From contig NC_080672.1 in assembly GCF_030247195.1 (NCBI RefSeq), forward strand, positions 162,305,839 to 162,369,838: a DNA stretch of 64,000 bases, written 5' to 3'. This stretch comes from Topomyia yanbarensis. Lineage: Eukaryota > Arthropoda > Insecta > Diptera > Culicidae. The position numbers were made by a program, and so were the translations under genes. Of the stretch, positions 2,677 through 63,044 are shown piece by piece; positions within the stretch are counted from its first letter, which is position 1; the number at the start of each line of letters is the position of its first letter. Under the pieces are notes generated by a model. That model searched no databases. It worked only from the letters and a program-made list of their open reading frames with translations, and was not told the DNA's origin.

Positions 2677-3884
2677 CAACAATCAAAGAAATTTATCTCA
2701 CCAAGCGTTAAAAATGCTTGGAGTTTAGGAAGCTCTAACCAAACATTAAACGAAAAGAGCAATGCTTCATGACAGGACTACTTACAGGATCCTGTCCGAG
2801 TAAATAACATCTTATGAAGGTTGGTAAACTTATAAAAGATACATGATACAAATGTGAATTTCATAGTACCTATATTTATTTATTTCAGTTCAACCAAGGA
2901 GTGAAACCCTCAAACTAGATAGTATTTCATTTCGATTTCATCTTTCGAACTTTCACGAACAACGCAATTAGTTACTTTAACAGCCTAAAGCGAAACGCCG
3001 ATAACCTGCGGTGCAAAACTTATCTCCAGCTACAAATCTACCACAAGCCCTCGTGCGTTGGGGTTGGTTTTTGGATTTGGATACCGAACGTTCGCAGCAT
3101 CCTCATGCAGTGACAAATTTACCTTCTTCGTAGCTCGCACTGAATGGACTGCTCCAGATGAGCAAAGATTATTCCTTGCCTTGCCCATATAAGTCGGTTC
3201 TTGATGTGGTTGGCGATGTGTGTCGAGCCAAACCCATTGCTTAAGCGGCACCTTTTACATCGATTACTGTCGCCCATAGCAGAGCGAGTGATCTAGGTTG
3301 GTTTACAAGCCAACCATTTCATCGCGAATAAATCAATCTCACGTGTAAGGTGAAATCGCACATTGGACCGTGGCCAGGAATATGAACCTGAAAAATAGCA
3401 TTTCCCGCAGTGCGCTAATATTTAGTGTGCGACTCATGCCGAGCGAAAAATTGTCATCTAGTGTGGATTCTTTTTCATCTACGAAACCATGAATGGAACG
3501 GGTGCCATTACTAAGAAAAGTCGACATCTGACAAACCGGCCGGCGGATAGATTGCTTTCGTTTTCACTACATCTTGAACTTGGACTTGGATTTGGGCTGA
3601 ATCGCCATAATAGGGGAGACCTAGGCGAGTTGAAATTGTGCCCAATGCTATCGGAACAATACAGTTAGGAAGCTGCCAATAAAGGATGGTGTCCAAGGTT
3701 TAAGTTTGAATCTTTTTCCCGGATGGTTCTAGTTATTTTTAGTTTCTTTATCACATTGAAATTTTACTTTCACTTTATGCGGGAAAGATAAATACCTAGG
3801 GTGGGTAAGATGGTCGTAAATGAATAAATATAATTGAGCTATTTATATGCAAATATTGGAAAAAATCTACAGAAGCAGGATTGG
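2677..3884. other. No recognised gene
   Basis: A 73-aa minus-strand frame lies at 3030-3251 and two short ones at 3339-3696. None matches a family I recognise. Base composition is more balanced here than in its neighbours, so a decayed coding fragment is possible. Confidence 0.25.
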
Positions 3885-4375
3885 TACCTGCAACCTTTGA
3901 GGTTCCGGCCCAATGCACTAACCCTTATGCTATCGCAGGGATATGATGACGTTCCAGAAAGAACATATGATTATCGCACTGGCGACAGTGATCGTACCCT
4001 GTCTGCAAAGTGAAATCACACACAACCGCAGCTGCCACCCAACACATTTGATCTATTAAATTTATCCGCTGGATACCAAGGCCCGGGTTTTATTATTGTC
4101 TGGTGTCTAATTTTTAGTTCATTATCAATCGCACTTCAATGGGGACAGAGCCAATGAAGATTGTCGATTTCTCGTCCCTTACCCAGATAACAGAGCTTTG
4201 GTATTTGGTTTTTGACGTAAGTGTCAATACCTTGGCAGCTGCGGTTGTGTGTGATGGCGCTTTGCAGGCAGGTTACAATCATTGTCGCCAGTGCGATAAT
4301 CATATGTTCTTCCTGGGACGTTATATTATTCCAGGGATAGCATAAGGGGTAGTGCATTGGGCCGGAGTCTGTTAC
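3885..4375. repeat. Inverted repeat with tRNA-like boxes
   Basis: About 150 bp at 3890-4040 recurs in reverse complement at about 4234-4375, at roughly 85% identity by eye; shared phrases include CATATGATTATCGCACTGGC and GGCAGCTGCGGTTGTG in opposite orientation. Reading outward from the minus strand of the left arm, TAGCATAAGGG followed about 35 bases later by GGTACCAATCC resembles RNA polymerase III A and B boxes with decay in the B box. The right arm shows similar text on plus. I infer two oppositely oriented copies of a tRNA-derived SINE, or a foldback element derived from one. Confidence 0.5.
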
Positions 4376-6777: not shown

Positions 6778-9267
6778 GAGTAAAGCCATGTCAAGTGATC
6801 CTCGAATTTTTCGCAAAATCACCGATCTTCATGAGGTATATTTTATTGGATAGGGATTATGGTGAATAGCTTTTGGTATAAATATTTCGTTAAAACACCT
6901 TTTATTTTCAAGATATTAACCCTTCAACTTTATTGCATGATAAAATTGTAAATTTTATATCTCAAAAACCACTGAAGACAATTCAATGATTTTTTGCACA
7001 CTTATGGAATGATATTTGCTCTATCTCATAAAAATATTGTTGCTGTATGATTATGTGAATAACGGTACTTTGCATCTATTTAAAAATTTAAATTATATTT
7101 TTTATTGTGTTCTTCACGCTAAAAATTTTCAAAACGTATGTCAAATTATGCGGCAATCTTTCACCTTCAATAATCTGTATTGATCATTTTTCATTTTTGC
7201 TCCTATCGAGAGTTATGGAGGATTTTGTAACAGTGCGCTCTTTCAACGCACGGCCCACTTTGATGCAGTCCGCGAGAACGTTCATATTGGCAACACCGCA
7301 CGTCGCTACGACAGAATGCGCATCGCGTTGGAAGTGCGCATCGCATGACTAAAAGAAACCACATCTCTCGATTAGTGCAAAAGGGTAAACTTTTCTATAT
7401 GTATTATCGAAGATGACTTTTTTCAAATATTTTGAGATGCTTTAAAAATTTTTGACCGAAGTAAACAACAAAAATTATAGTTACTTAATATTTTTTCTAT
7501 TAATATAATTTAACGTTTCTAACAATTAACATCATCAAAAACACTTCTGTTAGTCAAAGTACATCTATGTTATATCCAAATTCATTTTTAGTCTACAACA
7601 TTAATATAGGAAAATCTTATGACAACAGCATTTTATTTCACGTTTTTATTTTCACCAAGTGATATTACCTTTAAACAACGATGTATCTTTTGAAAAAAGT
7701 TTATTTTGTATCTGTTGTTCAATCGCATCGATGGTTTTTATCACTATTGTTTCTGTTAATTCTGTAAATTTGTGGTGCTCCAAGTTCTGGTAAGATGTTA
7801 TTTATTTTATCAAATTTCAGTTAATCATCAACGATCTTTATTTATAAATCATCGTTACAGTTTTCCGCATGAACCTGTTGAGTCAACGAATATTCCAGTT
7901 CCATTACTTTGGCAAACACTATAAGAAGAAAAAAATCCTATATTCTAAACGCGTAATTGAGAAACCCATTACTATAAACATGGGATGAAAAATTGAAAAT
8001 TTAACGAACATTATGTTTTGTTCATGTCCATATTTATTTTCGTTGTATTTTTTGCACCCATTACGACATATGCCGCACATGGGTTGACCAATATAATTTT
8101 TAAATTTATCACTTCACATGGATGCCACAATAACCAGATACGACGAACACATTTATGAATTTTTTTAACGGAATGAATCATTCGTGTGATCGACCCATAT
8201 TTATAACATGAAACAATCGAATGTTTTTTAGCAAAGTTTGTCTATTTTGAGATAATCTAGCATTTTACCATTGTCGAGTTCTTGCTATATGGGAAACACT
8301 CGAGTGCGATCGAAACAAAAACAAACGTCAAAACGTTTTTTCACTCGCACTGATGCAAACTAAATGGACGCGTAATTTAACGTAAAGCCCGATGGCGCAT
8401 GGCTGAAAAGTTGTAATGTGTATTTAAGAAAAGATTCGCAATAAACCACACTACCTCTCAGACAAATGAACTGACAATAAAATGTGGTGAAGTATGTCAA
8501 TTTGCAAAAAATATGTCAACGTAGTCAACATGCTCACTGCTCAACTTTGCTCATCGGCTGCCAATATCCGAGCGCGTTTGTCCGAGGTATTGAGTGAAAG
8601 AAAATTAAATAAGTCCTGAATAAAACATTCACCTTCAATAATCCATAAAGAAAAGCTTGGCTTTTTTCTTTAATCTCATAGATGCCAATTTTGCACATGA
8701 GATACGCTCCTTCAAAGCGATGCGCATTAGGACGTTGCGACGTGCGGCGTTGCCAATATGTACGTTCTCGCGGACTGCATCAAAGTGGGCCGTGCGTTGA
8801 AAGAGCGCACTGTTACAAAATCCTCCATAACTCTCGATAGGAGCAAAAATGAAAAATGATTAATACAGATTATTGAAGGTGAAAGATTGCCGCATAATTT
8901 GACATACGCTTTGAAAATTTTTAGCGTGAAGAACACAAGAAAAAATATAATTTAAATTTTTAAATAGATGCAAAGTACCGTTATTCGCATAATCATACAG
9001 CAACAATATTTTTATGAGATAGAGCAAATATCATTCCATAAGTGTGCAAAAAAATCATTGAATTGTCTTCAGTGGTTTTTGGGATATAAAATTTACAATT
9101 TTATCATGCAATAAAGTTTAAGGGTTAATATCTTGAAAGATAAAAGGTGTTTCAACGAAATATTTATACCAAAAGCTATTCACCATAATCCCTATCCAAT
9201 AAAATATACCTCATGAAGATCGGTGATTTTGCGAAAAATTCGAGGATCACTTGACATGGCTTTACTC
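6778..9267. mobile_element. Foldback-like element, ~560-bp inverted arms
   Basis: The arm at 6778-7340 recurs in reverse complement at about 8706-9267 with only scattered differences (more than 90% by eye). The outer ends are GAGTAAAGCC on the left and GGCTTTACTC on the right. The spacer 7341-8705 is AT-rich and carries no transposase that I recognise; a short frame in each arm is simply the mirrored repeat. This is the structure of a foldback element or long-TIR MITE. Its right arm stops two bases before the hammerhead satellite begins. I see no convincing target-site duplication. Confidence 0.6.
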
Positions 9268-9378
9268 TGCTATATTTCACCCTAAGGAGGAAAATTTGGT
9301 AAAAACCAAAATTTCTCACTAGGGTGAAAATTTGTTGGTAAAAAACCAGGAGGGCACAAATCCTTATTTCATACTATT

Positions 9379-9453
9379 TTGCGTTTCGGCTTCGCCTCAT
9401 CAGAAACCGACACTAACACATTGTCGGAATAGATTAGCGCCGGCTTGACGCAA
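9379..9453 (-). ncRNA. Type III hammerhead ribozyme, copy 1
   Basis: Read 5' to 3' on minus: TTGCGT (stem III), C17 and the cleavage point, AAGCCGGCGCTAA (stem I), a 17-nt loop, TTAGTGTCGGTTT (stem I), the core CTGATGA, stem-loop II GGC-GAA-GCC, GAA, then ACGCAA (stem III). Stem III pairs over 6 bp including the A15.1-U16.1 pair, stem I over 13 bp with three G-U pairs, and stem II over 3 bp. All invariant core bases (CUGANGA, GAA, the UH cleavage site) are present. The open helix is stem III. Activity is inferred from the motif, not measured. Confidence 0.85.
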
Positions 9454-9722
9454 ATCCCTTAAAACTAAAACACACTATGTGTTTCAATCAAACGACTGAT
9501 CAAACGTGATGTCCCGTTCGAGCAGAAGTTCTGTTTATGCCGATGAGACACAAGTGAAGCCGAAACTTGTCTTGGCTTAGCAGGCCTATGCGAAAGCACT
9601 ATGCTATATTTCACCCTAAGGAGGAAAATTTGGTAAAAACCAAAATTTCTCACTAGGGTGAAAATTTGTTGGTAAAAACCAGTCTTTGTACAGGAGGGCA
9701 CAAATCCTTATTTCATACTATG

Positions 9723-9797
9723 TTGCGTTTCGGCTTCGCCTCATCAGAAACCGACACTAACACATTGTCGGAATAGATTAGCGCCGGCTTGACGCAA
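9723..9797 (-). ncRNA. Type III hammerhead ribozyme, copy 2
   Basis: Same 75-nt arrangement as at 9379-9453, core and all three helices intact. Predicted cleavage on minus lies between plus positions 9791 and 9790. Confidence 0.85.
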
Positions 9798-10066
9798 ATC
9801 CCTTAAAACTAAAACACACTATGTGTTTCAATCAAACGACTGATCAAACGTGATATCCCGTTCGAGCAGAAGTTCTGTTTATGCCGATGAGACACAAGTG
9901 AAGCCGAAACTTGTCTTGGCTTAGCAGGCCTATGCGAAAGCACTATGCTATATTTCACCCTAAGGAGGAAAATTTGGTAAAAACCAAAATTTCTCACTAG
10001 GGTGAAAATTTGTTGGTAAAAACCAGTCTTTGTACAGGAGGGCACACATCCTTATTTCATACTATG

Positions 10067-10141
10067 TTGCGTTTCGGCTTCGCCTCATCAGAAACCGACA
10101 CTAACACATTGTCGGAATAGATTAGCGCCGGCTTGACGCAA
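10067..10141 (-). ncRNA. Type III hammerhead ribozyme, copy 3
   Basis: Identical in core and helices to the neighbouring copies. Predicted cleavage on minus lies between plus positions 10135 and 10134, 344 bases from the next site. Confidence 0.85.
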
Positions 10142-10410
10142 ATCCCTTAAAACTAAAACACACTATGTGTTTCAATCAAACGACTGATCAAACGTGATGT
10201 CCCGTTCGAGCAGAAGTTCTGTTTATGCCGATGAGACACAAGTGAAGCCGAAACTTGTCTTGGCTTAGCAGGCCTATGCGAAAGCACTATGCTATATTTC
10301 ACCCTAAGGAGGAAAATTTGGTAAAAACCAAAATTTCTCACTAGGGTGAAAATTTGTTGGTAAAAACCAGTCTTTGTACAGGAGGGCACACATCCTTATT
10401 TCATACTATG

Positions 10411-10485
10411 TTGCGTTTCGGCTTCGCCTCATCAGAAACCGACACTAACGCATTGTCGGAATAGATTAGCGCCGGCTTGACGCAA
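10411..10485 (-). ncRNA. Type III hammerhead ribozyme, copy 4
   Basis: Core and helices intact. One substitution (A to G on plus in CACTAACGCATT) falls in the loop closing stem I, outside the catalytic core. Confidence 0.85.
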
Positions 10486-10754
10486 ATCCCTTAAAACTAA
10501 AACACACTATGTGTTTCAATCAAACGACTGATCAAACGTGATGTCCCGTTCGAGCAGAAGTTCTGTTTATGCCGATGAGACACAAGTGAAGCCGAAACTT
10601 GTCTTGGCTTAGCAGGCCTATGCGAAAGCACTATGCTATATTTCACCCTAAGGAGGAAAATTTGGTAAAAACCAAAATTTCTCACTGGGGTGAAAATTTG
10701 TTGGTAAAAACCAGTCTTTGTACAGGAGGGCACAAATCCTTATTTCATACTACG

Positions 10755-10829
10755 TTGCGTTTCGGCTTCGCCTCATCAGAAACCGACACTAACACATTGT
10801 CGGAATAGATTAGCGCCGGCTTGACGCAA
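10755..10829 (-). ncRNA. Type III hammerhead ribozyme, copy 5
   Basis: Core and helices intact. This is the last full copy in the minus orientation. Predicted cleavage lies between plus positions 10823 and 10822. Confidence 0.85.
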
Positions 10830-11098
10830 ATCCCTTAAAACTAAAACACACTATGTGTTTCAATCAAACGACTGATCAAACGTGATGTCCCGTTCGAGCA
10901 GAAGTTCTGTTTATGCCGATGAGACACAAGTGAAGCCGAAACTTGTCTTGGCTTAGCAGGCCTATGCGAAAGCACTATGCTATATTTCTTCCTAAGGAGG
11001 AAAATTTGGTAAAAAACAAAATTTCTCACTAGGGTGAAAATTTGTTGGTAAAAACCAGTCTTTGTACAGGAGGGCACAAATCCTTATTTCATACTATG

Positions 11099-11139
11099 TT
11101 GCGTTTCGGCTTCGCCTCATCAGAAACCGACACTAACAC
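11099..11139 (-). ncRNA. Hammerhead copy 6, truncated at the inversion
   Basis: The 3' half of the motif is present on minus (one strand of stem I, CTGATGA, stem II, GAA, ACGCAA). The 5' half with the cleavage site is missing because the array flips here, so it cannot self-cleave alone. Confidence 0.8.
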
Positions 11140-11207
11140 AAGCCGGCGCTAATCTATTCCGACAATGTGTTAGTGTCGGTTTCTGATGAGGCGAAGCCGA
11201 AACGCAA
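11140..11207 (+). ncRNA. Hammerhead copy 7, 5' end at the cleavage point
   Basis: On plus it starts at A1.1, directly after where cleavage would occur, and has both strands of stem I, CTGATGA, stem II, GAA and ACGCAA. It lacks TTGCGTC upstream. This is the expected sequence of the 3' product of self-cleavage. Confidence 0.8.
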
Positions 11208-11476
11208 CATAGTATGAAATAAGGATTTGTGCCCTCCTGTACAAAGACTGGTTTTTACCAACAAATTTTCACCCTAGTGAGAATTTTTGGTTTTTACCAA
11301 ATTTTCCTCCTTAGGGTGAAATATAGCATAGTGCTTTCGCATAGGCCTGCTAAGCCAAGACAAGTTTCGGCTTCACTTGTGTCTCATCGGCATAAACAGA
11401 ACTTCTGCTCGAACGGGACATCACGTTTGATCAGTCGTTTGATTGAAACACATAGTGTGTTTTAGTTTTAAGGGAT

Positions 11477-11551
11477 TTGCGTCAAGCCGCCGCTAATCTA
11501 TTCCGACAATGTGTTAGTGTCGGTTTCTGATGAGGCGAAGCCGAAACGCAA
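11477..11551 (+). ncRNA. Type III hammerhead ribozyme, copy 8
   Basis: Full motif on plus with cleavage between 11483 and 11484. One change (AAGCCGCCG instead of AAGCCGGCG) replaces a G-U pair in stem I with a mismatch; the catalytic core is unchanged. Confidence 0.83.
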
Positions 11552-11820
11552 CATAGTATGAAATAAGGATTTGTGCCCTCCTGTACAAAGACTGGTTTTT
11601 ACCAACAAATTTTCACCCTAGTGAGAAATTTTGGTTTTTACCAAATTTTCCTCCTTAGGGTGAAATATAGCATAGTGCTTTCGCATAGGCCTGCTAAGCC
11701 AAGACAAGTTTCGGCTTCACTTGTGTCTCATCGGCATAAACAGAACTTCTGCTCAAACGGGACATCGCGTTTGATCAGTCGTTTGATTGAAACACATAGT
11801 GTGTTTTAGTTTTAAGGGAT

Positions 11821-11895
11821 TTGCGTCAAGCCGGCGCTAATCTATTCCGACAATGTGTTAGTGTCGGTTTCTGATGAGGCGAAGCCGAAACGCAA
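11821..11895 (+). ncRNA. Type III hammerhead ribozyme, copy 9
   Basis: Full motif on plus with cleavage between 11827 and 11828. Satellite homology stops one base after the last stem III nucleotide, so the array ends with the ribozyme itself. Confidence 0.85.
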
Positions 11896-11897
11896 CG

Positions 11898-12170
11898 TCG
11901 TCTATGGCTCTCACGTTGCTGTTTCAGCCAATGCTGCTACTCAATTCAAAGCGCTCGGTGAGAGTACGAGATGCGTGAACATTTGAGGTTGGACCGATGA
12001 AACCATGAAGACGGAAAATTCTGAAATTCTACTGGAGACGCTTGATTGCCTTATAGTTCCAATCTGAGTGTGCAACTTTAGTGTTTGACAATTTTGTTTT
12101 CATTGAAAATATTTTACGTGGTGCATACTGCAGTTAAGTTAAACTCAAAATGAGTTTCGGTTCGTCTGAT
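11898..12170. other. Unique-looking flank, nothing recognised
   Basis: The sequence right of the satellite has no obvious repeat or frame. It includes GTCTATGGCTCTCACGTTGC immediately after the array. Confidence 0.3.
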
Positions 12171-27616: not shown

Positions 27617-28525
27617 CTTTGTACCTTTCACATATAGAAAGGTTATGCAATTGCTCCAAAAACCTACTTTCTAACCGAGGTCCAGAGGGCCGAATCTTAG
27701 AAGCCGAGCCGACTCAGTTCGTTCGAGATCGGAAAATATCTGTGTATATGTATGTGCGTAATGCTGTGTGTATGCGGATATGGTAACAAAATGTCCACAT
27801 CAGTTTCTCGGAGATAACTGCACCGAATTTTACAAACTAAAATTCAAAAGAAATATACAATACTTCCATTGGCTGCTAGTGAATTTCATTTGAATTCGTC
27901 TTTTAGTTCCGGAGTTACAAGCTGAATAGTGCGGTCACATAAAAAATCTAGTTGTAATTTGTCCACATCGGATTCTCGGAAATTTCTGATCCGATTTTCT
28001 CAGACTTAGTCTTAAATGAAAGGCACAACGTTCCGATCGACTGCTATTAGATTTTTTGTGGATCCGACTTCCAATTCCCGAATTATGGAATGATGAATAT
28101 GATCACGCATAAAATACCGATTTGAACGGATACTGCATTGGAATAAAAGGTTAAAATTGTCCTAGTGGGTGAGCTTAATTTCTTGGATTTGTAGTTCTAG
28201 GTCACTATCGGCAATGTCAAGTCACGTGAGCCAGATTGATTATTATATAGGAGACGGTACCGGAAGTGTGGTCATGCTTCAACACCAAGTCACATAAATT
28301 TATCAGAGAGGGTTGGGTCGATTTCCACAAACTTAGTCTCAAATGAAAGTTTTATTATCTATTAAACTTTGTATAGATCTACTATTAAATTTTGTATGAC
28401 TTTTATATGTTTGTGGAAATGTAGTCCGGATTGTTCGGTATGAAATTCCCATATAAGCCGGAATTAAGAATATTTTAAAGGAGGGGGAGTACATGAAACG
28501 TTCACATCGGTTTCGCGGAAGTATA
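27617..28525 (+). repeat. Diverged copy of the 1.2-kb repeat family
   Basis: It opens with CCTTTCACATATAGAAAGG then TTGCTCCAAAAACC, matching the unit start at 60648. It then has several passages of the CACATCxGxTTCTCGGA ... ATGAAAGG ... GATCCGACTTCC type at about 27801, 27963, 28294 and 28503. Identity to the 60-64 kb array is much lower, so this is an older copy. Confidence 0.65.
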
Positions 28526-28558
28526 TTCCTCCTTGGGGTGAAATATAGCAAAGTCCTT
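28526..28558 (+). repeat. Orphan fragment of the hammerhead satellite
   Basis: TTCCTCCTTGGGGTGAAATA and the following TAGCAAAGTCCTT match the satellite segment TTCCTCCTTAGGGTGAAATA / TAGCATAGTGCTT with about four differences. It lacks the ribozyme. It shows the satellite family, or an ancestor, occurs elsewhere. Confidence 0.5.
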
Positions 28559-29773: not shown

Positions 29774-29847
29774 TGCATTCAAGGATGGTGTGATTTATCC
29801 AGCTATTCGCTGCATTCAAGGATGGTGTGATTTATCCAGCTATTCGC
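29774..29847 (+). repeat. 37-bp direct tandem duplication
   Basis: The 37-bp segment beginning TGCATTCAAGGATGG is present twice, back to back (29774-29810 and 29811-29847), without differences. Confidence 0.9.
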
Positions 29848-29849
29848 TA

Positions 29850-33399: not shown

Positions 33400-34484
33400 T
33401 TTGCCGCGTAATGCATTCACTTTACGCTACAACTCGCTTCCGAGTGTTTGAGAATTGATTCTGGAGACAAAGATATCCCAGGTTGCCTTTTTTGCTTCAT
33501 TTACAGCCTTTCTGGATTCATTTCGTGCTTGTTGAAATTCTTCTTCTTCATTGGATCATCGTTGTGTAGTCGTTTCAAAGCTCTATTTTTTTCGCTTAAC
33601 CTTAATTGCTACTCGTACTTCTGTGCTCCACCAAGCAACGCTTTTAGTGCCAAGTTTTCCAAATAATTTTGGTATGGACTGTTCTGCTGCATTGATTATT
33701 TCGTCGCAAAGTTCTTCTGCTGAATATGACTGGTCACGGTAAATTCTTCTAGCAGGATATCTTCCAATATCGTCCAATTCGCTCTATCATATATCCATTG
33801 CCTTCGACGTCGAATTTCTGGTACAAGTTGCGATGAGGTGCTTATCATTGGAAAGTGAACACTCGTACTGTTATCTGCGTCCACGTGCCACTGTAGTTTA
33901 GATACAATTTGTGATAATGCGATAGTTAGATCGATAGCCGAGGTGGCTCCCCTTCTTGGATCTAGGCGTGTGTGTTCTCCAGTGTTGAGGATTATAAGGT
34001 TGTGTTTGGCTGTTAAGTCTTCAATTACTGCTCCTTCACCATCGGTTTTGCTGTTACCCCAAAGTAAGCTGTGGGCATTAAAATCACCCTTCAGGACAAT
34101 AGGAGGTGGTATCTCGGTCACTAGTTGTTCTAGCTCGTTGTGTAAATACCTGGGCCACTGTGACAATGGATGTAAATTGATACATATATGGCTTCGATCG
34201 GATGGTTTAGCCTTGCGGCTACCACTTGTAGATTTGTATTTATTCTCAGAAACTTATGTGGACAGCGAGTGCTACTCCATTCTGAGCCCAAGATATTGAC
34301 CCTGGACGAATTGACCATTTATACTAGCTTCTGTGAAATTTGTCATTATGTCTGCTTGAGCGAGGCGCGTTTCTTGTACAGTAATGATACCTGGTTCGAA
34401 TTCCGATGCTAAAAGTTGCAATTCCGCATAGCGTTCTCTGATACCATTCACGTTCCATTGAATGGCGATACAATGTTCTGGCAC
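33400..34484 (-). pseudogene. I-clade ORF2 endonuclease fragment
   Basis: On minus, starting near 34484: IAIQWNVNGIRERYAELQLL and ITVQETRL (start of an APE-type endonuclease), then LQVVAARLNHPIEAIYVSIY, then KGDFNAHSLLWGNSKTD, ATSAIDLTIAL and SVHFPMI, then SVAWWSTEV and a basic helical linker. These are the blocks of an I-clade non-LTR endonuclease in order. The usual S-D-H-x-P motif has become S-V-H-F-P, and the blocks lie in several frames, so it is inactive. It stops at about 33400 without the RT. Confidence 0.8.
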
Positions 34485-42531: not shown

Positions 42532-49159
<6,628 letters not shown>

Positions 49160-59841: not shown

Positions 59842-60645
59842 AATACCGCGCAGCAAATACCCGCACTTCAAAAAGCGGTTAAAAGCGTCTTACTGGATCG
59901 CAACCGCTACGAGCCCTAAGCGTTGATGCGGTACTTACCCAACGTCAGTCTATCGCGGATTTGTATTGTACTCATTTCTGAACAGTTTACCGAAGAAGGT
60001 CCAAATATATAAAAATTTGAACGTTGTTTCGCCGAAATCGACTTATATCCGCTTGTATGCAATCTATGGACTCCTAAATGGCTTAACCGATTGCCGTAAA
60101 AATTTATACATAGTAGACATTTGTGTTTTTTACTTCTATTTCGCTGAAAGTCGCAGAAACGCGCGACGGATAACAGATAGTATATAATAATATGAATAAT
60201 ATTAGAACGAGCTCACCGGTCATTAATACGCGCCGATGCTGATGCAGAACCTGACACACTCGCAACTGCTGTCCCCATTGTGGTGCTGGCGACATTGATT
60301 GTAGATCGCCCGTGCTCTTTCATGCCCTTGAGTTTACCTGTAAACTCCAGATAAAAACCCACATTTGTGAATGAGTGAGAAACAAAGAACCATATCCTAA
60401 ATGTTTGCTTGTTCCACTTGTTCCAGTGCTTTCACTAAAAATACGAGTTCCTGAAAGTGCGGCAAAGCTTCCGCCAAACCATGAATTTGGTGGTTGGTTT
60501 TTGGTGGCTGAAGGTACAAAACCTGGTGATCAAATTTTCACTTTTTCTTCAAACTTGGTAATTTTGTTGCACTATTCTTTCGGATTTTGTTTGAAAGGTT
60601 GGAAAAATGGAACAAGAGCTTCACTTATTAACATTTTATGTCTGA
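59842..60645. other. No gene recognised
   Basis: Short frames without motifs. 60370-60640 reads through into the tandem array without coding signals. Confidence 0.3.
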
Positions 60646-60647
60646 TT

Positions 60648-61846
60648 TTGCCTTTCTCAATAGAAAGGTATTGCAATTGCTCTGAAAACCGACTTTTTAA
60701 CGGAGGCCCGGAGGGCCGAGTGACATATACCATTCGATTCAGTTCGTCGAGTTCGGCAAATGTCTGTGTGTGTATGTATGTGTGTATGTATGTATGTGTG
60801 TGTGTATGTGTGTGTGTATGTGACCAAAAATGTCACTCATTTTTCTCAGAGATGACTGAACCGATTTTGACAAACTTAGTCTCAAATGAAAGGTGCAACG
60901 TTCCCATAGGCTGCTATTGAATTTCTAATGGATCCGACTTCCGGTTCTGGAATTACAGGGTGATAAGTACGAACACGCAGAAAATGTCGATTTTAATAAA
61001 TTCTGCAATGAATGTATAAAGGTGAAAAATTTTCCAAAATATGACCACAACTGCTTCGATTTGTAGTATTAGGTCACTAACATCCATTCAAAGTCTATTT
61101 GGCCACATTGGCCACCATCCTCGGTTCCGGAAGCCCCGGCGGAAGTATCTAAATTCAGAATAACAGTCACATCGGTTTCTCGGAGATGGCTAGACCGATT
61201 CGACTAAACTTGGCCTCAAATGAAAGGTATTGCGTCCCCGTAAATGGCTATTTAATTTCATCCCGATCCGACTTCCGGTTCCGGAGTTACAGGTTGTGGC
61301 GTGCGATCACATAGCAAATTGTGATTCAAACCGATACTCCGATGAAAGCAAAAAAGGTAAAAATTTCGCTAAAATGTCTCTCAAACAACTTAAATTTGCT
61401 GTTCTAGGTCACCGACGGCCAACCAAACTTTCGTTGACTACATTAACCACCATAGACGGTTCCGGAAGTGCCCGGGAAAAGCGGCCATCTTTCAAAATTT
61501 AAGAACTCACATCAGTTTCCCGGAAATGGTTGGGCCAATTTTCACAAACTTTGTCCCAAATGATAGCTATAATATCCCCATAGATGTCTATAAAATTTCG
61601 TACGGATCGCTTATATGGATCCGGAAATATAGACTAAACCGTCCGGTCACATATGAAATTCCCATATAAGCCGGAACTCAAATTTTTTTTCAAAGGGGGG
61701 ACCTCATGAAATTTCAGAAATCGAATTCGTATTTTCGATGCCAAACATCTTTAAAATGCATGAAACGTCGAGATTTTATGTTATCTCGAAAAATTTTTTT
61801 TTTTATAAAAATCGACTTTTTGGGACTTTGCCGATTTCGCACCTTT
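60648..61846 (+). repeat. 1.2-kb tandem array, unit 1 (1,199 bp)
   Basis: Starts TTGCCTTTCTCAATAGAAAG, a small hairpin, followed by GGCCCGGAGGGCC, then a TGTG/TATG microsatellite (about 60760-60820). Three related passages follow at about 60845, 61169 and 61507: each has an opening like TCTCGGAGATGGCTAGACCG, then TCAAATGAAAGG, then CCGACTTCCGGTTCCGGA. The unit is thus a higher-order repeat of ~330-bp subunits plus a 5' module. Frames of 90-137 codons recur in each unit but start in the microsatellite or elsewhere and show no domain. Confidence 0.9.
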
Positions 61847-63044
61847 TTGCCTTTCTCAATAGAAAGGTATTGCAATTGCTCTGAAAACCGACTTTTTAAC
61901 GGAGGCCCGGAGGGCCGAGTGACATATACCATTCGATTCAGTTCGTCGAGTTCGGCAAATGTCTGTGTGTGTGTATGTATGTGTGTATGTATGTATGTGT
62001 GTGTATGTGTGTGTGTATGTGACCAAAAATGTCACTCATTTTTCTCAGAGATGACTGAACCGATTTTGACAAACTTAGTCTCAAATGAAAGGTGCAACGT
62101 TCCCATAGGCTGCTATTGAATTTCTAATGGATCCGACTTCCGGTTCCGGAATTACAGGGTGATAAGTACGAACACGCAGAAAATGTCGATTTTAATAAAT
62201 TCTGCAATGAATGTATAAAGGTGAAAAATTTTCCAAAATATGACCACAACTGCTTCGATTTGTAGTATTAGGTCACTAACATCCATTCAAAGTCTATTTG
62301 GCCACATTGGCCACCATCCTCGGTTCCGGAAGCCCCGGCGGAAGTATCTAAATTCAGAATAACAGTCACATCGGTTTCTCGAAGATGGCTAGACCGATTC
62401 GACTAAACTTGGCCTCAAATGAAAGGTATTGCGTCCCCGTAAATGGCTATTTAATTTCATCCCGATCCGACTTCCGGTTCCGGAGTTACAGGTTGTGGCG
62501 TGCGATCACATAGCAAATTGTGATTCAAACCGATACTCCGATGAAAGCAAAAAAGGTAAAAATTTCGCTAAAATGTCTCTCAAACAACTTAAATTTGCTG
62601 TTCTAGGTCACCGACGGCCAACCAAACTTTCGTTGACTACATTAACCACCATAGACGGTTCCGGAAGTGCCCGGGAAAAGCGGCCATCTTTCAAAATTTA
62701 CGAACTCACATCAGTTTCCCGGAAATGGTTGGGCCAATTTTCACAAACTTAGTCCCAAATGATAGCTATAATATCCCCATAGATGTCTATAAAATTTCGT
62801 ACGGATCGCTTATATGGTTCCGGAAATATAGACTAAACCGTCCGGTCACATATGAAATTCCCATATAAGCCGGAACTCAAATTTTTTTTCAAAGGGGGGA
62901 CCTCATGAAATTTCAGAAATCGAATTCGTATTTTTGATGCCAAACATCTTTAAAATGCATGAAACGTCGAGATTTTATGTTATCTCGAAAAAATTTTTTT
63001 TTATAAAAATCGACTTTTTGGGACTTTGCCGATTTCGCACCTTT
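61847..63044 (+). repeat. 1.2-kb tandem array, unit 2 (1,198 bp)
   Basis: Nearly identical to unit 1, apart from microsatellite length (about 61960-62020) and scattered substitutions. Confidence 0.9.

Follow-up and report, generated by a model that had tools for sequence, protein, structure and literature searches.

A type III hammerhead repeat in the mosquito Topomyia yanbarensis, probably a retrozyme inserted by Penelope-type machinery

The window analyzed here is a 64,000-nucleotide stretch of the genome of the mosquito Topomyia yanbarensis (RefSeq assembly GCF_030247195.1, contig NC_080672.1, positions 162,305,839 to 162,369,838 of the forward strand), and window coordinates below count from its first base. 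The window contains an insertion of tandem 344-bp units, arranged in two arms of opposite orientation, in which the units carry a hammerhead ribozyme motif. We describe this element, its copies elsewhere in the genome, and the route by which they were probably inserted. Positions within the element refer to a circular 344-nt unit in which position 1 is the base right after the predicted cut. The insertion and its parts are as follows.

9264..11140, minus strand: minus arm of the insertion, counted by Tandem Repeats Finder (TRF) at 5.5 tandem units of 344 nt; its inner 5′ end is at unit 27 and its outer end, a B end, at unit 193
11139..11898, plus strand: plus arm of the insertion, with 2.2 tandem units, running from an inner 5′ end at unit 1 to an outer end, an A end, at unit 71
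11139..11142, no strand: head-to-head junction of the arms, with a 2-nt microhomology (CA), by eye
11550..11565, plus strand: A zone (unit 67-82) in one unit; the end of one arm in 18 of 29 insertions; taken as reverse-transcription start A
11670..11681, plus strand: B zone (unit 187-198) in one unit; the end of the other arm; interpreted as start B of reverse transcription, with predicted pairing to the A zone or next to it
11708..11734, plus strand: unit 225-251, complementary to the hammerhead core and stem II; predicted mask of the ribozyme in the monomer or circle
28523..28558, plus strand: 36-bp fragment corresponding to unit 162-197 (the end of the hairpin, B zone included), diverged in sequence

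TRF reports a period of 344 bp in both arms, with 98% matches in each (9264-11140 and 11139-11896). The unit has a GC content of 41.9%, and the longest stop-to-stop stretch in the array is 80 codons, so that the array is non-coding. Full units differ by 0.9% within a locus (13 pairs) compared with 3.6% between loci (65 pairs; 2.0% without the diverged locus L017), and one private change is common to two neighbouring units of the window. The inner 5′ end of the plus arm is ambiguous by about 2 nt, which places it within 2 nt of the predicted cleavage point. Rfam matches to microRNA families at about 11052-11254 were rejected, as they reflect the inverted junction read as a long hairpin.

A strict motif search found seven complete hammerheads in the window, five on the minus strand and two on the plus strand, as a preliminary description of this DNA had claimed.

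9379..9454, minus strand: complete type III hammerhead (motif search)
9723..9798, minus strand: complete type III hammerhead (motif search)
10067..10142, minus strand: complete type III hammerhead (motif search)
10411..10486, minus strand: complete type III hammerhead (motif search)
10755..10830, minus strand: complete type III hammerhead (motif search)
11476..11551, plus strand: complete type III hammerhead with one stem I mismatch (C at 11490) (motif search); predicted cleavage between 11483 and 11484; stem III 11477-11482/11546-11551; stem I 11484-11496/11514-11526; core 11527-11533; stem II 11534-11542; GAA 11543-11545
11820..11895, plus strand: complete type III hammerhead (motif search)

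Stem III (TTGCGT/ACGCAA) has 6 bp, stem I has 13 bp including three G-U pairs, and stem II (GGC/GCC) has 3 bp with a GAA loop; the core consists of CTGATGA and GAA. These parts are those first described, apart from the mismatch in the copy at 11476-11551. The core CUGANGA/GAA/UH and the closing pair U16.1-A15.1 are present in all seven full copies. Helix III is open, as also noted earlier, and the motif is therefore of type III. The predicted cleavage points are spaced 344 nt apart on each strand; the claim that they lie exactly one monomer apart thus holds within a strand. Two more cores (11183, plus; 11123, minus) are without their 5′ side, having been cut by the inverted junction. The preliminary description mentioned neither the junction at 11139-11142 nor the core-complementary segment, nor the resident Penelope-like element with a matching signature that is presented below.

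Conservation of the motif was measured over 29 loci with the majority base as reference, and 58 paired or core positions, including the stem II GAA loop, were compared with 269 positions in the rest of the unit and 17 in loop I. Mean divergence is 1.9% at paired and core sites, 4.9% in the rest of the unit, and 7.1% in loop I (hammerhead versus rest of unit, Mann-Whitney p = 0.0003). Variable sites are found in loop I (unit 26-29), on the immediate 3′ side of stem III, at unit 48, and in stem II. Unit 48, altered in 3 of 28 loci, is the sole core site altered in more than one locus; we take it to be hammerhead position N7, which is free for any base. In stem II, a G-C pair has become A-U on both sides in three loci (L025, L041, L043). 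The 5′ part of loop I (TCTATTCCGACA) and the stem II GAA loop are conserved across loci, and a UUC/GAA pairing is conceivable; a contact between loops I and II appears geometrically doubtful, with a helix I of 13 bp against a helix II of 3 bp.

The proposed pairing was examined with one hammerhead per locus (26 loci, 20 distinct rows). According to this test, 97.3% of 439 cells are paired, compared with 27-45% after a shift of the partner by 1-3 columns. When the 3′ letters were shuffled, a mean of 96.7% remained paired and the observed value was matched in 5 of 500 shuffles; the covariation score of the proposed structure was attained in none of 500. Overall, the hammerhead is conserved and its covariation is thin. 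The pattern suggests that three helices with an open helix III have been kept by selection, and the low divergence of the paired and core sites supports the motif despite the outcome of the Rfam search considered below.

To place the window copy among its relatives, we rely on a search of the assembly with one unit (1044 contigs totalling 1.17 Gb, of which the largest three encountered are 218, 470, and 429 Mb long). All family counts are lower bounds, as the best 40 of 121 candidates were scored. There are at least 94 matches to the unit, in about 39 clusters across the genome. Examination of 36 regions gave 29 independent loci, including the window. Nine regions with common flanks (L024, L026-L028, L030-L033, and L042, hereafter the L024 group) were counted as one, because they represent one copy carried inside another dispersed repeat, of about 2 kb; in this copy the core GAA has become AAA. 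One of the nine, L026, is a 4.3-kb near-perfect inverted duplication of the 2-kb repeat holding the broken-core copy.

The outer ends of the insertions form two zones: A, at unit 67-82, lies just past the ribozyme, and B, at unit 187-198, lies past a long hairpin. The B end extends 115 nt beyond the A end, and this difference forms a 115-nt tail. Inverted head-to-head arms with one A end and one B end make up 18 of the 29 insertions, 16 of them identified by alignment and two by eye (L023 and L044, in which one arm is 6-15 nt long); at L016, a locus with duplicated copies, the most complete one was counted, once. Seven insertions have a single A or B end only (L011, L022, L025, L029, L035, L038, and L040), and four have an odd arrangement (L018, L019, L034, and the L024 group). 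Not one of the 29 has two A ends or two B ends. The motif ACTATG is common to the vicinity of both outer ends, and beyond about six bases the ends differ. Outer ends shift by several nucleotides among insertions, arm length and the inner 5′ end vary, and all mapped loci but the window and L011 have fewer than three units per arm. Copies in a single orientation are also present, one of which (L029) begins at the cleavage site.

Exact target duplications of at least 10 bp flank 13 of 28 loci: one of 10 bp, eight of 11 bp, two of 12 bp, one of 13 bp, and one of 14 bp. This count leaves out the L024 group, and L039 (11 bp with one mismatch) is also uncounted. In 756 swapped-flank controls, 9 bp was attained once and 10 bp never.

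Some inner 5′ ends lie at or near the predicted cleavage site. Namely, the plus arm of the window and L029 begin at unit 1, L035 begins at unit 4, and L012 begins at unit 341; at L010 both arms begin at unit 3, inside a 6-bp palindrome. Among 46 hand-read 5′ ends, six are at most 4 nt from the site (1.2 expected, P 0.0015), and the cleavage site is the richest ±4 window on the circle. The 46 ends show this modest excess and no sharp pile-up exactly at the cleavage site. Since arms reach 5.5 tandem units, a multimeric or circular template is needed.

A covariance model of the motif recovered diverged relatives in the flanking sequence at L050 591-681 (52.7 bits), L053 3211-3295 (47.0), L050 409-496 (43.4), L044 2044-2120 (32.7), and L020 108-195 (27.3), some of them head to head. 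They suggest that the lineage has long been in this genome and is varied there. The relatives occupy L050 1-700, L053 3211-3877, and L020 108-195; aligned pieces of those in L050 and L053 match the unit at 67-85%, and in some relatives the third stem I pair appears altered by eye. Another hammerhead-like repeat, with the core CTGACGAGGAGAATCCGAAAC or close to it, occurs as head-to-head pairs at L044 2044-2222 and L053 4216-4383, and the one in L053 adjoins the end of a Penelope-like copy. At L041, a copy of the element holds at 1836-2665 what was read by eye as a later insertion, whose ends are inverted (GGGGAAGATGG...CCATCGTCCCC). A 24-base core pattern had no matches in viral contigs.

The unit is predicted to fold as a rod (−117.1 kcal/mol, z −6.3, equalled by none of 100 shuffles). 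One stem of this rod has zone A on one strand and zone B on the other, in a register that varies between folds. In this fold the core (unit 44-64) is paired with unit 225-251, and the ribozyme would therefore be masked. A second hammerhead on the opposite strand (CCGATGAG...GAAGCCGAAAC) was rejected by eye, as neither stem I nor stem III fits; this sequence is the complement of the masking segment.

The arrangement of the insertions recurs in a resident Penelope-like element. A genome search for GIY-YIG domains gave at least 5 matches among the best 150 of 439 candidates. At L049, an open reading frame (ORF; 505-1875) encodes RVT_1 (E 4.5e-13) and, downstream of it, GIY-YIG (E 9.1e-6), each above the Pfam cut-off; a structure search with this Penelope-like ORF gave only two weak reverse transcriptase matches (E 0.005-0.006). 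Its 114-bp pseudo-long terminal repeat (pseudo-LTR) has at least 63 matches among the best 40 of 865 candidates, mostly at 97-98% identity and with many close inverted pairs. In 37 pseudo-LTR regions, chosen preferentially for visible arm pairs, there are 21 independent two-arm insertions, and in 19 of them the arms end at reference positions 112-115 and 146-158; the other two (L083 and L095) end at 75 on one side. None of the 21 has two equal ends. Their target duplications measure 10 bp in one case, 11 bp in 13, 12 bp in three, and 4-7 bp in the other four, and 10 bp was attained once in 420 controls. Thus, the Penelope-like element has in common with the hammerhead element its head-to-head arms, the use of one each of two end sites, and a modal duplication of 11 bp. 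Many short Penelope copies, at L067-L086 and L093, consist of two pseudo-LTR arms placed head to head. In most of 18 Penelope junctions examined, the arms halt near a common place (TATAGACTGATAC), as if the 5′ end of the template RNA were fixed. A search of the pseudo-LTR for a hammerhead core found none; a near-fit with an extra A was seen by eye and is not claimed.

Taken together, the dispersed copies, the duplications of mostly 11 bp where detectable, the rule of one A and one B end, the head-to-head junctions, the conservation of the ribozyme, and the parallel with the Penelope-like element argue, at the level of sequence, for a common explanation. We consider it likely that the element is a non-autonomous type III hammerhead retrozyme that encodes no protein and is moved by Penelope-type machinery via two internal RNA start sites. 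The element would work like a Penelope-type insertion without itself being a member of that group, as no stop-free stretch in the window array exceeds 80 codons. Self-cleavage, circle formation, and the identity of the mobilizing enzyme are what we infer from this record.

A possible course of events would be the following. Multimeric transcripts would be cut at GTC|AAG into 344-nt RNAs, the unit-length processing that the preliminary description had predicted and that one type III hammerhead per monomer leads one to expect, and these RNAs would probably be ligated into circles. In the long rod, the core would pair with the complementary segment, which may keep the circle from recutting itself. 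A Penelope-type reverse transcriptase/endonuclease would bind the RNA and nick both target strands about 11 bp apart. Reverse transcription on each strand would start from a different internal site, A past the ribozyme and B across the base of the long hairpin, and the two cDNAs would meet head to head and then be joined. Two enzyme subunits might sit on one stem, one starting at A and the other at B; the pairing between the two end zones is weak in the Penelope-like element, and this step is therefore a guess. In a further reading, the retrozyme circle may act as a two-headed template for a dimeric Penelope-type enzyme, with the ribozyme masked by the circle fold as in viroids, an idea that we hold as possible at somewhat short of even chances. 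Start sites that face each other on one stem of the rod, one per nicked strand, would then explain why each full insertion has one A and one B end.

Several observations weigh against a Penelope-moved retrozyme with a functional ribozyme. The preliminary description proposed a covariance search, and at the gathering threshold Rfam finds no hammerhead in the window; at E ≤ 10, the only hammerhead family is RF00008, with nine matches of 18.7-20.9 bits (gathering 48.5; E 0.43-1.8) that cover a part of 39-45 nt, with shorter helices I and III unlike the proposed ones. The lowest-energy local fold differs from the hammerhead (−26.7 versus −22.5 kcal/mol, by energy rules that take no account of the non-canonical hammerhead core). 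Double changes occur in one pair only, a count attained by 215 of 500 shuffles, and the number of pair types (8, compared with 8.2 in shuffles) is not raised. The excess of 5′ ends at the cleavage site is modest: two of the six belong to one junction, windows near unit 175-180, and at 42 for ±3, equal or exceed the site at other widths, and L012 and L015 carry up to 4-5 nt from upstream of it. An exact duplication of at least 10 bp was not detected in 15 of 28 loci, including the window copy, whose 6-bp duplication (ATGGCT) is equalled by 16% of controls.

The same holds for parts of the comparison with the Penelope-like element. Pairing between the two end zones, clear in the hammerhead unit, is weak there (from −1.6 down to −6.1 kcal/mol), and two of eight copies favour other pairings. 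Among its longer copies, L051 alone has an 11-bp duplication; those of L050, L052, L053, and L054 (7, 5, 6, and 7 bp) are at chance level. The preferential choice of pseudo-LTR regions counts in the same direction, and the shared signature rests on a comparison of these two elements only. No sequence likeness to the Penelope-like copies, whether to their body or to their pseudo-LTR, was found in the hammerhead element; the signature therefore points to a kind of machinery and not to this very element. In published work on a lizard Penelope (PMC11167929), loss of the hammerhead left insertion in vitro unaffected, and no RNA reads started or stopped at the hammerhead cut site.

Among other explanations, the most durable is that the hammerhead is a dead relic, in a family that moves otherwise and in which the motif is conserved only through recent spread. 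It is consistent with the Rfam result, with the more stable alternative fold, and with a published Penelope enzyme that works without a hammerhead (PMC11167929), and the L024 group has spread despite its broken core, inside the 2-kb repeat. Yet across subfamilies, divergence at ribozyme sites is lower than in the rest of the unit by a factor of about 2.5, and changes fall where hammerheads tolerate them (loop I, N7, and a stem II pair), so we regard a relic as unlikely.

Mobilization by the enzyme of a long interspersed nuclear element (LINE), through twin priming in which a second priming inside the RNA starts from the other nick, seems improbable to us. Twin priming results in head-to-head inversions; neither two fixed internal end zones, used once each, nor a near-fixed duplication length would be expected of LINEs. 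LINEs are named beside Penelope as candidate mobilizers of animal retrozymes (PMC7229834).

A foldback or other DNA transposon, with fixed left and right ends and tandem arms in inverted orientation, mobilized by a transposase and carrying the hammerhead along, would fit the nearly constant duplication length and the ACTATG common to both outer ends. It is very unlikely given the several-nucleotide wander of the outer ends and their difference from each other beyond that motif, the variable arms and inner 5′ ends, and the single-orientation copies such as the one that starts at the cleavage site; furthermore, the end rule and the duplication length recur in the arms of an element coding for reverse transcriptase and GIY-YIG. 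Finally, plain satellite DNA spread by unequal crossing-over with an incidental hammerhead, the nature first given to the array, agrees with the 98% likeness of the tandem units, their closeness within loci, and the private change in adjacent window units, and is nevertheless strongly disfavoured, to the point of being hardly credible, by the duplications and by the rule of one A and one B end: the window array belongs, as a single insertion, to a dispersed family of short copies with target duplications, clustered outer ends of Penelope-like form, and, outside the window and L011, fewer than three units per arm, in a test that covers the best 40 of 121 candidates and leaves room for long arrays elsewhere.

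The reading as a Penelope-moved retrozyme can be compared with known systems. Metazoan retrozymes that lack long terminal repeats (non-LTR; Cervera and de la Pena 2020, PMC7229834) have type I hammerheads, and their mobilizer is assumed to be Penelope or a LINE; the question is left open there, with LINEs and Penelope-like elements among the candidates and the latter a strong one. The element resembles them, as the preliminary description had proposed, in its short tandem non-coding units within the 150-450-bp range, each with a hammerhead and a GC content below 50%, and in target duplications longer than 4 bp (here 10-14 bp in 13 of 28 loci). It differs in that its hammerhead is of type III and predicted to be masked, whereas theirs is of type I and mostly free in the circle, and in that its insertions carry a Penelope-type signature, whereas no mobilizer is assigned to them in that text. 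With plant LTR retrozymes (PMC7229834, PMC7761336) it shares a type III ribozyme that a complementary segment blocks in circular RNA, by prediction in the present case. Those elements have LTRs of about 350 bp, a primer-binding site, a polypurine tract, and 4-bp duplications; here, the arms are tandem or inverted, duplications are of about 11 bp, and there is no LTR arrangement (primer-binding sites and polypurine tracts were not searched for).

The insertions fit well with published accounts of Penelope-like elements. The purified lizard Penelope protein nicks and extends both target strands, and reverse transcription starts from two internal RNA sites that match the ends of the genomic "tail"; the hammerhead in its RNA cut only with the protein present (Frangieh 2024, PMC11167929). 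Rotifer Penelope insertions show head-to-head pseudo-LTRs, palindromic junctions, and a tail on one inverted end, with duplications of 8-10 bp and some with none (Arkhipova 2013, PMC3846280); the resident element here has 11 bp. The hammerhead element shares with these (PMC3846280, PMC11167929) the head-to-head arms, the one-ended tail, a hammerhead upstream of the start sites, and, as we propose, reverse transcription from two internal sites on both strands. Unlike them, with their reverse transcriptase, GIY-YIG domain, and minimal type I hammerheads, it is non-coding and has a full type III hammerhead.

Hammerheads of type III are described in fly and termite genomes and in hepatitis delta virus-like circles (de la Pena 2021, PMC7936874), so that type III as such is not new to flies. 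The dipteran host and long helix I are points of likeness. The fly motifs are said to resemble the toad and termite designs, in which helix I contains an internal loop and a loop-loop pseudoknot accompanies a 6-bp helix II, in contrast to the uninterrupted 13-bp helix I and 3-bp helix II found here; the termite ones are isolated motifs, and no mobile element is mentioned as their context (PMC7936874). A review mentions insect elements with type III hammerheads, from earlier work and work in preparation (PMC7761336). In Aedes aegypti, interspersed repeats carry hammerheads with a palindromic stem III that are thought to be dimeric, and an example showed no cleavage when assayed (Perreault 2011, PMC3088659). 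Our element is likewise an interspersed mosquito repeat with a hammerhead, and unlike the palindromic stem III of Aedes, its stem III is open. The earlier statement that this monomer had not been described in mosquitoes thus stands for the monomer itself, in the literature searched, and does not extend to hammerheads in mosquito repeats. That literature, from which most subscription papers and all preprints are missing, contained no animal type III retrozyme and no Penelope signature in a retrozyme.

Other features of the window include about 90 copies of a 9-base repeat (AAACAATAC) at 44009-44819, open in several frames and flanked by C2H2 zinc-finger-like ORFs at 43022-43936 and 45286-45762 (by eye). 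An ORF at 33696-34166 (minus strand) resembles the endonuclease part of a non-LTR retrotransposon. The regions 60375-60920 and 61706-62119 have a long identical translated stretch in common beside TG/TA microsatellites and are probably a dispersed repeat. There is also a perfect 37-bp tandem duplication at 29774-29848. A tRNA-like match at 3874-3933 (minus strand; 35.9 bits, model positions 7-64 of 71) is possibly a tRNA pseudogene or the head of a short interspersed nuclear element.

The 29 insertions of the hammerhead element constitute a readable record, with two end zones that are never alike in one insertion and an 11-bp duplication like that of the resident Penelope-like element. The Penelope hypothesis is therefore directly testable with one RNA and one enzyme. 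If true, the two-headed template reading would provide a genomic record of the movement of an animal retrozyme, and of an animal retrozyme of type III. Such an element would bear on the suggestion that the spread of repeats may need a type I hammerhead (PMC3088659) and, with its type III ribozyme and predicted mask, on the distinction made between masked ribozymes in plants and unmasked ones in animals (PMC7229834).

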